A stretch of 48,571 nucleotides of DNA, from NCBI GenBank assembly GCA_937139485.1, contig CAKZQD010000009.1, positions 1 through 48,571 on the forward strand. The letters run 5' to 3'. The stretch's first letter is position 1. Every line of letters starts with the position of its first letter. The notes below the pieces were generated by a model. It worked only from the letters and a program-made list of their open reading frames with translations, was not told the DNA's origin and made no database searches. Source of the stretch: an uncultured Bacteroidota bacterium (GTDB taxonomy: Bacteria; Bacteroidota; Bacteroidia; Chitinophagales; UBA8649). Below, in pieces: positions 18,601-24,252 of the stretch. The translations under genes and the position numbers were made by a program.

Positions 18601-20176
18601 CATAATTACCACTATTATCTAAAGGTTGGTATCTCAATTGAATGTTTCCAGGACTAGAAGGCGTATATGTAAATATTCTATTAGGAGCCGTGTTTGTAAA
18701 TGTAATTGCAGAACCGTCAAGTGCTATTAAATTTGCAACTTGTAGTGGCAAACCTAATGTAGAATTATCATTAGCTAATAAATCTGATTCTAATATTTGT
18801 ACAGTAACCCCTATACAATTATCTGAACTAAGCACATTGGCTAAATTATCAAAATCATCTATTCCTACCACTGAGGGTGTACATCCTGAATAACTAAGGA
18901 GATTACTTGAATTTGATGCCCCAATAACTGTAGCTGGATTACTGAATATTATAACATTTTGATGCCCAAAAGAACTTGATAAAGAGTACCCTAATTCACA
19001 CAACAAACCAAACTCATCAGCATGTAATCTTTTAGGACTATTTATAGCAGCTTGAGGTGTCATAATATAGTCTGAAGTTGGAAAACTACAGTTATTTCCA
19101 AGATCTATATGACTTAAACTTGAACCAAGTGAAAAGCTATCAGGTGAATATACATTACGATTATCTTCTCCTAATCTTAATACCCCAGCATTAGGGCAAC
19201 CTGTAGTTATTGTGCTTAATAATGGTGTATTAAAGTCGCCAGATTGGTCTACTAATGCAACACCAGTATTGGTATGTATCAATTGATCATAAGGAAGATA
19301 TGAAATATTGTTTTTAGGCAAGCCATTTATACCAATTCCCGATGCAAAACCAAGAGCATGCATTATTTCGTGTAAAAGTACAGAATACATATCGTAGCCA
19401 AAGCCAGGAAATGTTGGATTTATTTGTGTTCTCCAAGGATGAAAGAAATTTACTCGTATCACTCCATCCCATTCATCAGCTGCATTAGAACCCGAGTTAA
19501 TAGCATTCCACACACATCCATTAATGATTGTTCCAGAAGGTACATCATTATAATCATAATATGAAGATGCCGAACCAAGCATGTCACTATTGAAAAATGA
19601 AGACTTTAATTCAAATTTTACAGGTTCTATGACATCACCAGAAGGAACAGTTTCAATAATTAATTTTTCTAAATCTGCAAATATTTGTGCTACAACATTC
19701 CTTGCAGCAGTATTTGAAGAAAACCCAATGCCTGGTGCAGGTGGACTTTGACTATCGTTTGTTAAATAGACGGCAAATAAGCCCTCTGGGCTAATGTAGT
19801 TAGGAACTATAGGTTGGGGAATTACAGGGCCAAAAGATTGAAGCAAAAGCTCTCCTTTTATCTTAATTTGTTTTGACTTTTTTAAAGGAATTTTTTTGCA
19901 ATTTACATTACCAAATCTATCTATAAATTCGAATTTGGGGTCATGAACAAAATTAGCTAATTCATTTAAAACAAAATGCTCAGTCAAAGTGCAAGACTCT
20001 GGACTATCTAACACGCCACAATAGCCCGACAAGGAAGGCGAAGGGGTGAGTATAGGAAAAAAATAAGATAACTTTTGAGCATGCCCAAATTGTATACTTA
20101 AAATAAATACTAGAAATAGAATAAAGTGTGTTTTTCTTGATTTTATAATTGTTTTTAACATAGTTTTTTTTACCAA
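15608..20176 (-). CDS. Large secreted metalloprotease-like protein with type IX sorting domain
   Basis: The 1522-residue product begins with a signal peptide (hydrophobic core ending FGHAQ at about residue 34). HEIMHALGFASG at 269-280 is an HExxH zinc motif followed by the metzincin-like glycine; the third ligand is not at the usual +6 position, so a leishmanolysin-like layout with a distant ligand is more likely than a classic M10/M12. The middle has cadherin/Ig-like strands, a PKD-like domain (TLNNGETHQWDFQNDGTVDA, about 955-975) and a long region with repeated beta-propeller-like strands (GNVFAHGIV, VYLAGFASDHPSP, KIFVSGNYWANN). The end is a type A sorting domain (FIYPNPSNGIFSLNL, then KGVYKVEI), so the protein is exported by type IX secretion. 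A start at the internal Met (20161) is also possible. Confidence 0.88.
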   Translation of the reverse strand: MVKKTMLKTIIKSRKTHFILFLVFILSIQFGHAQKLSYFFPILTPSPSLSGYCGVLDSPESCTLTEHFVLNELANFVHDPKFEFIDRFGNVNCKKIPLKKSKQIKIKGELLLQSFGPVIPQPIVPNYISPEGLFAVYLTNDSQSPPAPGIGFSSNTAARNVVAQIFADLEKLIIETVPSGDVIEPVKFELKSSFFNSDMLGSASSYYDYNDVPSGTIINGCVWNAINSGSNAADEWDGVIRVNFFHPWRTQINPTFPGFGYDMYSVLLHEIMHALGFASGIGINGLPKNNISYLPYDQLIHTNTGVALVDQSGDFNTPLLSTITTGCPNAGVLRLGEDNRNVYSPDSFSLGSSLSHIDLGNNCSFPTSDYIMTPQAAINSPKRLHADEFGLLCELGYSLSSSFGHQNVIIFSNPATVIGASNSSNLLSYSGCTPSVVGIDDFDNLANVLSSDNCIGVTVQILESDLLANDNSTLGLPLQVANLIALDGSAITFTNTAPNRIFTYTPSSPGNIQLRYQPLDNSGNYGNYTYVNIHITSCSGLGCVNTNTCNLICNPEVIDNGNCGIDECIYFQFSAPFSNCSSTDNFNVPGWTNLFFSPDWLPDVNFTSCTNGTSAFFNTNLLPNPSGGRISFFSSQRATPSNSTNTFTSEAASTSVNIQPNKNYILSYHKIDGIDFSLTSSPNIVPAIGLKVGLNIIDDVNLPTTDLLKYRHNRIVGTVTNGTSQSNQFFNNTNVELITDMSISSNWSQTVLNFTSPNNAQYSLLSFYGLVDESYLNTVNSYINPQYSSQSEISVYQFDRFELIEDHLQDIPNEYIVDCGVSTSVGIELCSVANMQFQWWDVTNNIQLTNANTILNTSPLGTYSVISTNANGSILEISNIYSDINLELRRVMPSLSNAGLAIFDNVPAMDNIKSVVVNVLGGDAPYDATFTATENSPNCFELTFQSTTLNNGETHQWDFQNDGTVDATGSSTSFNFQINGSYPVVHITSNDCGSRKDTMIVTVDCSICTWPKHYGSNSSLIEKADAVVVDNSGNVFAHGIVESSIVFEGGATVESGVFLAKYDNCGVLLWIKDVPLYGRTNSKMKIDNLGNPILMSTNATSGLDNDINYRLTKFSNSNGSVLWSNVIEQYRYLYMPSFDIDMNTNEIYLLTSVNVYTKVKQANGAYIIDYTAPNGPNTSLVYPKIKGHIVKFNSSGMVIWQDHMIANSGSAGFQDIVVAENTNRVYLAGFASDHPSPVGNITFNSNNSITMYPNDTYRLFIASYTTGGVLLYSNMYSSINANTNGIQLEYSNTDDEIYLKNGQELQLFNTAGNLISSTLILGQLGQMYYDQINNHLITCGTHFCNELKIQKYIGTTLVWTYLKGTCNSKAVAFQVSGDPTSDKIFVSGNYWANNFLFSPMVNMPLAGGHDAFIAKIRDLGSTVSYNKKEQSEEFIQKGLEDDIFSAEVFIYPNPSNGIFSLNLVSKEVGCRIEVFNYLGQVVYENIYDSNFFTIDLSLEPKGVYKVEINNVSFSSCKNIIIF

Positions 20177-20292
20177 ATGTAACTTAAAATTTAAAAAAAT
20201 ACAAATTGGTTCTTGTTATCAATCCTTATTGTAATATAAAAAAACTTCAAATTATCTTGAACTTTCGGAACAATATTATAAAAAATTTTCAC

Positions 20293-20311
20293 TACGCAAA
20301 AATACTGCGTA
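20293..20311. promoter_or_regulatory. Palindrome upstream of rtcB, possible operator
   Basis: TACGCA and its exact reverse complement TGCGTA are separated by seven bases (20299-20305). The site ends 10 bases before the -7 box at 20322, so it covers roughly the -35 to -20 region of the promoter, where a bound regulator would control transcription. No regulator gene is adjacent. Confidence 0.5.
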
Positions 20312-20321
20312 CCACCTCCGA

Positions 20322-20329
20322 TATATTTG
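20322..20329 (+). promoter_or_regulatory. Bacteroidota -7 box of rtcB
   Basis: TATATTTG fits TAnnTTTG and is followed by a leader of about 60 bases to the ATG at 20395. A matching TTTG box at -33 is absent; the palindrome occupies that place, which suggests the promoter depends on an activator. Confidence 0.55.
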
Positions 20330-20394
20330 CATTATCAATTAACGAAGAAGGATAATTGAGTAGAAACACTTTGCTCCTTCAAAAACAAAAAATT

Positions 20395-21558
20395 ATGAAA
20401 CAGGTAGTATCAACAGAAAGATTACCGATAAAAATGTGGTTGAACGATTTAGAGCCTGGCGCTTTAGCACAAGCCAAAAACTTAGCAAATTTGCCTTTTG
20501 CGTTTAAACATATTCCTTTAATGCCAGATTCGCACCAAGGTTATGGAATGCCAATAGGAAGTATTTTGGCTACTAAAGGTGTTGTAATTCCAAACGCTGT
20601 AGGTGTAGATATTGGATGTGGTATGTGTGTTCAAAAAACAAGTTTAAAATCTATAGATAAAGACAATTTAAAGCAAGTGTTGGGCGAAGCCAGAAAATTA
20701 ATTCCATTAGGATTTAACTGGCATGATGAAGCACAAGACGAAGCCTTTATGCCTGATATGGATTTTGAAAATTTATTAATTGTAAATAGAGGAATTCATA
20801 AAGCCAGAAAACAAATAGGTTCTTTGGGTGGTGGAAATCATTTCATAGAAATTCAACAAGGTTCTGATGGTTTTATTTGGGTGATGATACATTCTGGTTC
20901 TAGAAATTTAGGGCATTCTGTAGCAACGCATTACAACAAATTAGCGACCAAAATGAATGAAAAATGGCATTCTGTTGTAACTAAAAAAATGGAATTAGCA
21001 TTTTTTCCTATTGAAACCGATGAAGCAAAAAACTACATCAAAGAAATGAAATACTGTGTGGAGTTTGCTTTAAAGAATAGAACTTTAATGATGAAAAGAA
21101 TGATGCAAGCTCTAGAAACGGTTTGTGGTGCTTTTGAAACAGACGAAATGATTAATGAATCGCACAATTTTGCGGCTTGGGAAAATCATTTTGGAGAAAA
21201 TGTATTGGTTCATAGAAAAGGCGCAACAAGAGCTTTTGATGGAGAATTGGGAATGATTCCTGGTTCTCAGGGAACAAAATCTTACATTGTAAAAGGTAAA
21301 GGAAACCCAGAAAGTTTTAATTCTTGTTCGCATGGTGCAGGTAGAAAAATGGGTAGAAAACAAGCCATTAGAGAATTAGATTTAGAAGCAGAAATTGCAT
21401 TATTGGACGAGCAAGATATTGTTCACGCCATTAGAAACAAGTCAGATTTAGACGAAGCTACAAGTGCGTATAAAGACATTGATATTGTAATGGAAAACCA
21501 AAAAGATTTAGCAGAAATAGTTGTTGAGTTAAAGCCTTTAGCGGTTTTGAAAGGATAA
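20395..21558 (+). CDS. rtcB: RtcB-type RNA-splicing ligase
   Basis: The product (387 residues from the ATG at 20395) has the family hallmarks: MPDSHQGYGMPIGS, the metal cysteine in GVDIGCGMC, GGGNHFIEIQ (metal histidine), IHSGSRNLGH, and the GTP-accepting histidine in NSCSHGAGRKMGR near the C terminus. RtcB joins RNA 3'-phosphate or 2',3'-cyclic-phosphate ends to 5'-OH ends using GTP and Mn2+, in tRNA splicing or RNA repair. I chose 20395 because family alignments start with MKQVV-type sequence; the longer frame from a TTG at 20356 lies in the leader. The archease partner is absent. Two nucleotidyltransferases follow downstream. Confidence 0.93.
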   Translation: MKQVVSTERLPIKMWLNDLEPGALAQAKNLANLPFAFKHIPLMPDSHQGYGMPIGSILATKGVVIPNAVGVDIGCGMCVQKTSLKSIDKDNLKQVLGEARKLIPLGFNWHDEAQDEAFMPDMDFENLLIVNRGIHKARKQIGSLGGGNHFIEIQQGSDGFIWVMIHSGSRNLGHSVATHYNKLATKMNEKWHSVVTKKMELAFFPIETDEAKNYIKEMKYCVEFALKNRTLMMKRMMQALETVCGAFETDEMINESHNFAAWENHFGENVLVHRKGATRAFDGELGMIPGSQGTKSYIVKGKGNPESFNSCSHGAGRKMGRKQAIRELDLEAEIALLDEQDIVHAIRNKSDLDEATSAYKDIDIVMENQKDLAEIVVELKPLAVLKG

Positions 21559-21599
21559 ATCTATTTACGATTTGATGATTTACGTATTGTTGTAGAGCT

Positions 21600-21715
21600 C
21601 CGTCATTGCGAAAATTCCAGAGAATTTGAAGCAATCTTTTAGTTTGAACAAAAAAATTAGGTTTTAAAACTAACAGATTACTTCAAAAGCAGAAAAAGCT
21701 TTTTCGTAATGACGG
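21600..21715. repeat. Intergenic inverted repeat of the CCGTCATTGCGA type
   Basis: CCGTCATTGCGAAAA at 21600-21614 is the reverse complement of 21701-21715 with one mismatch, and TTTGAAGCAATCT at 21625-21637 matches the complement of 21675-21687 with one mismatch. The two arms enclose about 116 bp and could fold into a long cruciform or hairpin. This is the type of dispersed intergenic repeat seen in many Bacteroidota genomes (CGTCATTGCGA...GAAGCAATCT). It lies between rtcB and the next gene and may be a non-autonomous miniature element or a transcript stabiliser. Confidence 0.75.
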
Positions 21716-21815
21716 TTTTTAATGAAATGAGTTGTGAAGTTAAACCAGCGTTTTTGGTTTGTTTGTTGAAGTTCAGGCTAGTAATTCTGATGGTCTGGTT
21801 TATTAAAAGAATGTT

Positions 21816-22301
21816 ATGAAAATAAAGTTTATAAATATTGTTATTGGTTTTTTCTTTTTAATTCCAATTGGAATTCTAATGTTATTACTATTACCTTTTT
21901 TAATTTTTCTTTTTCCTCTTTATTTAAATGAAAGAAAAATAATAGTAAATAAATCACAAAAAAAATTTCACATACTTGAAGGTTCTAGAGTTTTTGTTTA
22001 TAATGAAAATAAAAAACCATTGAGTTTCATAGAAAAAGAAGTTTTAAGAAAATTGCCTAAAAATATAAAGGTTTTGAAAGTTAAAAACGGTGAAATAATT
22101 AATAGTAAAGATGTTGAATATTATTCTAGTTTATTTTTTGAAATTAAAAATTGCTCTATATTTCCAATAATGATTAAAATTAAAAATGGAGAAGTCAAAA
22201 GAGTTTCTATGAATAATGAATTATTTAGATGGAAAAACCAGAGTAAAAACCCTGGTCCGTTCTTTATAAAATTGTGTACATTTTTTGAACTAAAAAACTA
22301 A
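21816..22301 (+). CDS. Small hypothetical membrane protein
   Basis: The 161-residue product has one long or two close hydrophobic segments at about residues 8-38 and a basic soluble C-terminal part of about 120 residues rich in Lys and Asn. No family is recognised. It ends three bases before the nucleotidyltransferase start, so it is probably cotranscribed with it and may tether that enzyme or its product to the membrane; this is inference from position only. Confidence 0.6.
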   Translation: MKIKFINIVIGFFFLIPIGILMLLLLPFLIFLFPLYLNERKIIVNKSQKKFHILEGSRVFVYNENKKPLSFIEKEVLRKLPKNIKVLKVKNGEIINSKDVEYYSSLFFEIKNCSIFPIMIKIKNGEVKRVSMNNELFRWKNQSKNPGPFFIKLCTFFELKN

Positions 22302-22304
22302 ATA

Positions 22305-23081
22305 ATGAGAAATAAAATAATAAAAGCTCTAAAAAATTTAGAGCAAGAAAAAAATATACGAATACTCTATGCTTGCGAAACAGGTTCTAGAGCTTGGGGA
22401 TTTGCATCAGAAGATAGTGATTTTGATGTTCGTTTTATCTATGTACATAATATAGATTGGTATTTAAGCTTAGACGAAAAGCCTGATACGATATCTATAA
22501 TGCTTGAAGATAGAGAACTTGATTTAGTAGGTTGGGAATTGAGAAAAACTTTGCGTTTAATGAAAAAATCAAATGCGAGTGTATTTGAGAAATTAGATTC
22601 ACCCGAAGTTTATATAAAAGATGATGATTTTCTAAAAGTAATCAATTCATATAAAAATGAAGTCTTTTCGCCAATAGCAGTAATGTATCACTATTTATCG
22701 ATGTGTAAAAATGTGTTCTCTAAAGTAGAAAATGAAGAAAAATATAGTTTAAAAATGCTTTTTTATTCATTAAGAACTGCTTTGGCAAGTAAATGGGTTT
22801 TAGACAAAAAATCAATACCGCCAATAGTTTTTAATACTTTGGTAAAAGAACTTGATTTTGATTTAAAACTTAAAGAAAGAATAACTTTACTTTTAGTGTT
22901 AAAAAGTTCAGTAGACGAAAAATACCTACACGATGATGAAGAAGAGTTAATAGCTTTTATAAGAGAAACTGTAGATTTATGTAATCTTAAAGCTAAAGAT
23001 TTGAGTGCGGCTAAAAACAAAAATGTTAATTTAGATTTTATTTTAAAGTCAGCAATATTTGATTCTGAGTATAAAGAATAA
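22305..23081 (+). CDS. Minimal nucleotidyltransferase (COG3541/YcgL-like), copy 1
   Basis: The 258-residue product shows the polymerase-beta type active site: CETGSRAWGF with the GS loop at 27-28, then SEDSDFDVRFIY with the metal-binding D39 and D41, and a third acidic residue in LEDRELDLVGWEL (E71 or D73). The remainder is helical (about 80-240) as in COG3541 proteins. Such enzymes transfer a nucleotide to a protein, small molecule or RNA end; the substrate of this family is not established. It follows the small membrane protein by three bases and precedes a second copy by about 110 bases. Confidence 0.85.
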   Translation: MRNKIIKALKNLEQEKNIRILYACETGSRAWGFASEDSDFDVRFIYVHNIDWYLSLDEKPDTISIMLEDRELDLVGWELRKTLRLMKKSNASVFEKLDSPEVYIKDDDFLKVINSYKNEVFSPIAVMYHYLSMCKNVFSKVENEEKYSLKMLFYSLRTALASKWVLDKKSIPPIVFNTLVKELDFDLKLKERITLLLVLKSSVDEKYLHDDEEELIAFIRETVDLCNLKAKDLSAAKNKNVNLDFILKSAIFDSEYKE

Positions 23082-23193: not shown

Positions 23194-24252
23194 ATGAAAA
23201 TAAATATCAATTTTTTAAAAGAAAACAACTTAATACTTTTTGAATGTATTAGCGGAAGCACTGCTTATGGTTTAAATACTGCAAGTTCAGATATTGACAT
23301 TAAAGGTGTTTTTTATTTGCCCAAAGAGCAGTTTTTTGGCTTGAATTATATTCCACAAGTTAGTGATGAGAAAAACGATGTGGTTTATTACGAAATAGGT
23401 CGCTTTATAGAATTGCTTTCTGTAAGTAATCCTAATATTTTGGAAATGATGTTTACCGATGAGCAGTTTATAAAAATAAATTGCCCACTTTTTCAAAAGA
23501 TAAAAAAAGATTTTCTTTTGTCTATAGCCTGCAAAAACACTTTTGCAGGCTATGCTTTTTCACAAATAAAAAAGGCAAAAGGTTTAAACAAAAAAATAGT
23601 AAACCCAATAGATAAAAAACGAAAAACGGTTTTAGATTTTTGCTATGTCAGTGAGTTTGGAAAGTCTATTCCTATACACAAGTATTTAGAAGCAAACAAA
23701 CTAAAACAAGAAAATTGTGGTTTAGTAAAATTGAATCATATGAAAGATGTTTTTGCTTTGTACCATAGTTTAGTTATAAATTATAGTGGAATTATAAGTT
23801 CAGAAAAAGCCAATGACATTTCTTTGAGTTCTGTAGAAAAAGGAGAAAAAGCCTTAGCTACATTTTATTTTAACAAAGATGGTTATTCGCAGTATTGTAA
23901 AGAATACAAGCAATATTGGGATTGGGTTGCAAAGCGAAATGAAGCCAGATATGAGAATACAGTTTCTAATGAAGCCAACTACGATGCTAAAAATATGATG
24001 CACACATTTAGACTTTTAAATATGGCAGAAGAAATAGCTACAGAAAGCACGTTAAATGTATTTAGAAAAGATAGAGAATTTTTACTTTCTATAAAAAATG
24101 GCGAAAGAACTTATGATGAATTGGTTCAGCTTGCAGAAAAGAAATTGAAAAAAGTACAGCTAGCTTTTGATAATTCTGACCTAAATAAAGAACCAAATAT
24201 AAAGGCTTTAGAAAATATTCTGATAGAAATAAGAACTGAATTGTATAAATAA
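23194..24252 (+). CDS. Minimal nucleotidyltransferase (COG3541-like), copy 2
   Basis: The 352-residue product has ECISGSTAYGLNTASSDIDI, giving the GS loop at 21-22 and metal-binding D33 and D35, then a long helical part with CKNTFAGYAFSQIKKAKGL and DAKNMMHTFRLLNMAEEI, which carries a conserved lysine/histidine pattern found in this family (KNMMH). It is longer than copy 1 and only distantly like it, so the pair is not a recent duplication. A strong 13-bp hairpin lies inside its coding region (23524-23553). It converges with recX with two bases between stops. Confidence 0.85.
   Translation: MKININFLKENNLILFECISGSTAYGLNTASSDIDIKGVFYLPKEQFFGLNYIPQVSDEKNDVVYYEIGRFIELLSVSNPNILEMMFTDEQFIKINCPLFQKIKKDFLLSIACKNTFAGYAFSQIKKAKGLNKKIVNPIDKKRKTVLDFCYVSEFGKSIPIHKYLEANKLKQENCGLVKLNHMKDVFALYHSLVINYSGIISSEKANDISLSSVEKGEKALATFYFNKDGYSQYCKEYKQYWDWVAKRNEARYENTVSNEANYDAKNMMHTFRLLNMAEEIATESTLNVFRKDREFLLSIKNGERTYDELVQLAEKKLKKVQLAFDNSDLNKEPNIKALENILIEIRTELYK
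23524..23553. repeat. Perfect 13-bp hairpin inside a coding sequence
   Basis: ATAGCCTGCAAAA pairs exactly with TTTTGCAGGCTAT across a four-base loop ACAC, and GCTTTTTC follows directly on the plus strand. It has the form of a rho-independent terminator but lies at about codon 111-120 of the second nucleotidyltransferase. Confidence 0.8.

Follow-up and report, generated by a model that had tools for sequence, protein, structure and literature searches.

What controls the RNA ligase gene rtcB in a bacterium that appears to lack RtcR, its regulator in Proteobacteria? The question is raised by a 48,571-nucleotide stretch of DNA from an uncultured Bacteroidota bacterium (the window, below), in which a palindrome covers the -33 region of the rtcB promoter. 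Our analysis indicates that this palindrome is a predicted operator, very probably bound by a WYL-family protein that regulates many kinds of RNA-repair genes across Bacteroidota and replaces RtcR.

The rtcB promoter and its locus

The original prediction described an exact palindrome over the -33 region, ahead of the -7 box TATATTTG, and we could confirm it: TACGCA-N7-TGCGTA at 20293-20311 is the sole copy free of mismatches, whether in the window or across the 3.0-Mb genome (242 contigs). With up to three mismatches allowed, neither the window nor the genome shows enrichment of the pattern, its counts staying at background level. Degenerate copies are thus uninformative at three mismatches, which leaves conservation as the deciding test. 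Other near-matches in the same genome (C16, C46, C73, C149, C195, C200) are intragenic or in unrelated places, do not show the promoter layout and were discarded.

No TTTG is found at the -33 position of the rtcB promoter in the window, again as predicted. Such an absence is common, however: in sampled pieces of the same genome, a -33 TTTG is present at 2 of 28 intergenic TAnnTTTG boxes. Because -33 boxes are this rare, a missing one argues only weakly for activation, and we dropped it as stand-alone proof of an activator. The spacing between palindrome and -7 box in the window (10 bp) is the minority value. The rtcB leader gave no credible Rfam match for an RNA element, and translation of rtcB likely starts at ATG 20395 rather than at TTG 20356. 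The divergent gene for a T9SS-sorted protein is probably outside the regulon.

Downstream of rtcB lie a 161-aa ORF and two RlaP-type genes, a content that identifies an RNA-repair locus (Table 1). The first of these RlaP genes is possibly in one operon with rtcB; in other loci (for example, L202, L193 and L204), RlaP pairs are placed directly under the same operator. We also observed, at 21590-21720 of the window, a strong REP/MITE-like inverted repeat (CGTCATTGCGAA...TTCGTAATGACGG) that separates rtcB from the RlaP-side genes and may act as a divider of transcription units.

Table 1. Features of the rtcB locus in the window, with the candidate regulator and a newly linked protein family
Feature	Position	Strand	Remarks
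Operator palindrome TACGCA-AAAATAC-TGCGTA	20293..20311	+	Left flank reaches CACTACGCAA, in agreement with the family consensus ACTRCGCAA
-7 box TATATTTG of rtcB promoter	20322..20329	+	10 bp downstream of palindrome; TTTG offset kept across the family
Predicted transcription start region	20334..20338	+	Inferred from the -7 box; start expected about 7 nt past TATATTTG
TTTG-N20-TACATTTG promoter of divergent T9SS-sorted protein gene (ATG 20161)	20174..20205	-	Contrasts with the rtcB promoter
rtcB, RNA ligase RtcB	20395..21558	+	387 aa; Pfam RtcB, E=2.6e-110
161-aa ORF 3' of rtcB	21816..22301	+	No Pfam match
RlaP, RNA-repair-associated nucleotidyltransferase	22305..23081	+	Pfam RlaP, E=2.3e-72
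Second RlaP-type nucleotidyltransferase	23194..24252	+	Pfam RlaP, E=1.8e-21
HTH-WYL-WCX regulator, same genome	L071:6364-7941 (G000:C18)		WYL E=2e-9, WCX E=7e-8, both passing curated cut-offs
MXAN_6230/SCO0854-like family	L127:6775-8940, L128:7213-9378, L121:3374-5542		No Pfam match; homologs in L167, L175, L201, L219

Conservation of the element

The palindrome is real and widely conserved. Compiled sites define a family element, ACTRCGCAA-N5-YTGCGYAGT, with an A/T-rich tract upstream. Its range ahead of rtcB relatives extends from Saprospiraceae to Bacteroidales of the rumen and includes Aureispira, other Saprospiraceae, one Flavobacteriales MAG and several Bacteroidales; it lies either immediately 5' of rtcB or 5' of a slipin-rtcB unit. 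In 65 rtcB-derived loci (382 kb), 31 sites were observed, compared with 0-1 expected from first-order Markov sequences.

Position is conserved together with sequence. The TTTG of the -7 box occupies a fixed place in 33 of 38 compiled sites, and the gap between the palindrome and TAnnTTTG is 9 bp in most sites, 9-10 bp being typical. A pooled set of 190 distinct oriented palindromes gives TTTG offsets of 13 nt (n=82), 14 nt (n=32) and 12 nt (n=7), although this set was partly selected by the spacing in the search pattern and the 38-site compilation is the cleaner test. A TTTG -33 box is seen in none of 121 promoters of the pooled set. Loss of the palindrome beside a surviving promoter box, the outcome named as damaging to the original prediction, did not occur; the two are kept together at fixed spacing.

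A WYL-family gene accompanies the operator

An HTH-WYL protein is the product of the divergent gene next to the site in many loci. In the genome of the window, the full promoter pattern occurs at exactly two sites: besides the perfect copy at rtcB, a genome-wide search of the kind originally proposed yielded one in the interval between a WYL gene and a slipin gene. This second site (G000:C18:12979-12997) is located 39 bp from the start of the WYL-WCX gene, and its opposite side faces slipin. The two promoters are closely similar, from the palindrome to the -7 box and the subsequent CATTATCAAT. In this genome, the predicted regulon comprises rtcB and possibly the two RlaP genes downstream of it, slipin with its Y-RNA-like/tRNA-like leader RNA, and perhaps the regulator itself.

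Across rtcB loci, the site is present in 18 of 18 with a WYL ortholog and in 10 of 47 without one (p=2.6e-9). Several of these 10 belong to Aureispira, where a WYL gene with its own copy of the site is found a few kilobases away. No site precedes rtcB in genomes where the nearest WYL protein is about 30-36% identical (G184, G270, G199, G144, G326, G002 and G004, the last two having no rtcB). In most loci the site is immediately 5' of the WYL gene, whatever the accompanying repair gene (rtcB, TROVE, Hen1-Pnkp, F722 or slipin). One genome, G389, is a partial exception: its rtcB has a site while its WYL gene has none directly in front.

An AlphaFold model of one member of this WYL family reached a pLDDT of 74.5 and low full-length TM scores, and its domain arrangement is uncertain. 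Its best match in the PDB is DriD bound to DNA, followed by PafBC, then BrxR and CapW, with the helical N-terminal domain aligning to DriD. A profile search with the regulator likewise ranks PafB and DriD first; a single-sequence search of the PDB with it gave no match. The regulator of the window's genome and some of its relatives are extended versions (520-577 aa) that carry an additional domain of about 190 aa at the C-terminus (L071:6364-6930, L010:1839-2390); this domain has no Pfam match and appears faintly oxygenase-like by eye.

A predicted regulon recovered from the promoter pattern alone

We searched 395 genomes of the class for the pattern TRCGCAAN6TGCGYA N12-14 TTTG. This produced 83 matches in 50 genomes, compared with 2 for a reversed-pattern control. 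Matches mostly adjoin a WYL gene and precede genes for RtcB, slipin, TROVE, RlaP, Hen1, Pnkp or T4-type RNA ligase. Among 60 regions fetched, a known RNA-repair gene is present in 45 and a WYL ortholog in 38; neither occurs in 13, part of which are probably chance matches. Among immediate targets, RtcB (two subfamilies; n=16), slipin (n=12) and TROVE (n=9) are the most frequent, followed by a family of MXAN_6230/SCO0854-like proteins of about 720-750 aa (n=6) and RlaP (n=2). Pfam searches added Hen1_N, a DUF2828/vWA protein and, in two genomes, a T4-type RNA ligase. In G173, one site separates the WYL gene from a Hen1-Pnkp operon and another precedes TROVE, and in several loci a single site is common to two divergent promoters. 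Both operator and regulon are well supported. That unrelated repair chemistries should come under a single operator favors an RNA-damage response over a quirk specific to rtcB.

The MXAN_6230/SCO0854-like genes have tRNA-like RNAs nearby in several loci, and their products are candidates for a new partner protein of the Ro60/slipin kind. Further operator-linked genes were noticed at L119:2578-3570, L118:3470-4765, L120:3812-4792 and L214:4556-5098; they encode a PLD-like protein whose C-terminus resembles Hsp70, two unknown proteins and an exonuclease similar to RNase T, all possible effectors of the same response. At L180:4779-5507, the operator is 5' of a gene of a MoxR-vWA-beta-propeller (bpX4) ternary system, with an operator-linked rtcB a few kilobases downstream.

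Activator or repressor

The WYL-family regulator DriD of Caulobacter crescentus activates an SOS-independent DNA damage response and recognizes ATACGAC-N7-GTCGTAT; its sites, which overlap -35 and are centered on it, keep a constant distance from -10. They match the -35 sequence poorly, and sigma domain 4 is flanked by the DNA-binding domains of DriD (PMC12340889). The candidate regulator shares the wHTH-WYL-WCX composition of DriD, and its putative site contains the same TACG-N11-CGTA within a palindrome of about 20 bp, likewise over -35/-33 and at a fixed distance from -10/-7. The half-site is TACGAC for DriD and TACGCA here, identity in the structural alignment is about 15%, and DriD, whose ligand is ssDNA, serves DNA-damage genes rather than RNA-repair genes. 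The mycobacterial PafBC is an activator that works by sigma adaptation (PMC11804915). It too replaces -35 recognition, and PafB ranks among the best profile hits for our regulator; PafBC, however, is a heterodimer acting on a -26 motif, whereas the present element is a palindrome at -33. Activators of the DriD/PafBC type are switched on by single-stranded nucleic acid that occupies their WYL domain.

CapW and BrxR, on the other hand, are WYL repressors that bind palindromes of about 20 bp near promoters, the CapW site overlapping -10 (PMC9122588). These homodimers act on the promoter of a neighboring operon and are the model for a reading in which the same WYL protein on the same operator blocks the promoter until released by its ligand. 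The overlap of the site with the zone of sigma domain 4, and its sharing by divergent promoters in several loci, would suit such a mode. The targets of CapW and BrxR are the phage-defense systems CBASS and BREX rather than RNA repair, and CapW covers -10, while the site here is strictly at -33, stops 10 bp short of the -7 box and leaves that box free. As the TACG half-site, its spacing and its placement agree with those of DriD, and the closest structures are those of activators, activation by the WYL protein is the better reading and repression seems rather unlikely. The activator-dependent promoter of the original prediction is therefore better supported, by analogy with DriD and PafBC, with repression still a rival.

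Readings that dispense with the WYL protein fare less well. Another dimeric regulator might bind the palindrome, the WYL gene being a passenger of RNA-repair islands. The link does rest on co-occurrence, and the WYL gene of G389 agrees with a passenger role; yet the site fronts the WYL gene in most loci despite differing repair genes, and is missing at rtcB in genomes without this WYL subfamily, so that we regard a passenger role as improbable. Control by RtcR and sigma-54, as in Proteobacteria, would fit the shared target rtcB. An RtcR domain search that succeeded in E. coli, however, gave no match in the window's own assembly (92% complete), and no sigma-54-like site (-24/-12) occurs at up to three mismatches from 19902 to 20521. 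On this 92%-complete assembly, such control is hardly credible, and we rejected it. The original suspicion of a different regulator thus holds, with an HTH-WYL-WCX candidate that adjoins the second palindrome and co-occurs with the site elsewhere. As for a chance palindrome or an RNA hairpin devoid of regulatory role, the background frequency of three-mismatch versions would be in keeping with it, but sequence, spacing and gene context are all conserved and the element, 5' of the -7 box, falls outside the predicted transcript; its probability appears negligible.

We thus consider it likely that the palindrome serves as operator for a homodimeric HTH-WYL-WCX activator, encoded at L071:6364-7941 in the window's own genome, that runs an RNA-repair regulon. 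RNA damage would produce a ligand of this protein. The natural guess, with RtcR and its response to damaged tRNA (PMC7790460) as the analogy, is a broken-RNA product. The ligand-bound dimer would sit on the two TACG half-sites around the place where sigma reads -33 and would retain sigma domain 4 on a promoter devoid of a -33 box; repair genes would then be turned on from the TTTG-type -7 box. This geometry would be that of DriD in Caulobacter, the functional parallel being RtcR acting via sigma-54 in Proteobacteria. RtcR is a dedicated regulator of rtcB, a Ro60-like protein and Y RNAs (E. coli rtcBA, Salmonella rsr-yrlBA-rtcBA), although as a CARF-AAA+ protein it differs from the HTH-WYL-WCX candidate. 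By these analogies, the system would work like DriD and resemble RtcR in its targets. A broader proposal, to which we assign about an even chance, is that of a dedicated RNA-damage response in Bacteroidota, in which a WYL activator built like DriD senses broken RNA and co-regulates RtcB, T4-type ligase, Pnkp-Hen1, RlaP, TROVE/Y RNA and slipin/tRNA-like RNA via one conserved -33 operator.

A probable regulator and operator are now at hand for rtcB in a phylum in which we found no RtcR control. The motif is searchable and places numerous families of RNA-repair genes in one predicted response; it also offers a way to find new repair components by promoter alone, as illustrated by the MXAN_6230-like family beside tRNA-like RNAs. 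The arrangement seen with DriD, a WYL protein over the -35 box, would be extended from DNA damage to RNA damage, and the question of the RNA-damage signal in these bacteria becomes directly testable.

RNA partners

SPFH/Band-7 proteins, a tRNA-like molecule and RtcB/RlaP were reportedly identified as components of RNA-repair systems by Burroughs and Aravind in 2016. As those cassettes have RtcB, slipin, RlaP and tRNA-like RNA in common with the present loci, the gene content of the latter is probably already known. The open literature searched, which did not cover the 2016 survey, yielded no description of this operator and none of rtcB under WYL control.

Permuted tRNA-like modules, made of a T arm, a closed acceptor hairpin and a D arm, adjoin slipin, TROVE and MXAN_6230-like genes. 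Between the second site of the window's genome and slipin, L071:8191-8253 resembles positions 23-85 of YrlA (RF02553) at 39.4 bits (E=4e-7; curated score, 69 bits). The likeness covers the tRNA-like module alone, with no match at the Rfam gathering threshold, and no TROVE gene was detectable in this genome. The whole slipin leader (L071:8100-8720, G000:C18) appears as a structured RNA in which a hairpin whose UUUCUGUAUAG loop is invariant precedes the permuted module. Leaders of the same type precede slipin in ten other loci (L011, L012, L013, L015, L168, L184, L198, L200, L212 and L218), and their UUUCUGUAUAG-loop hairpin has no match in Rfam. In L013, two tRNA-gene matches, one of them a tRNA of 94 nt, lie close to a second palindrome site in the interval from WYL to slipin (978-1860); they are possibly spare or decoy tRNAs of the repair regulon.
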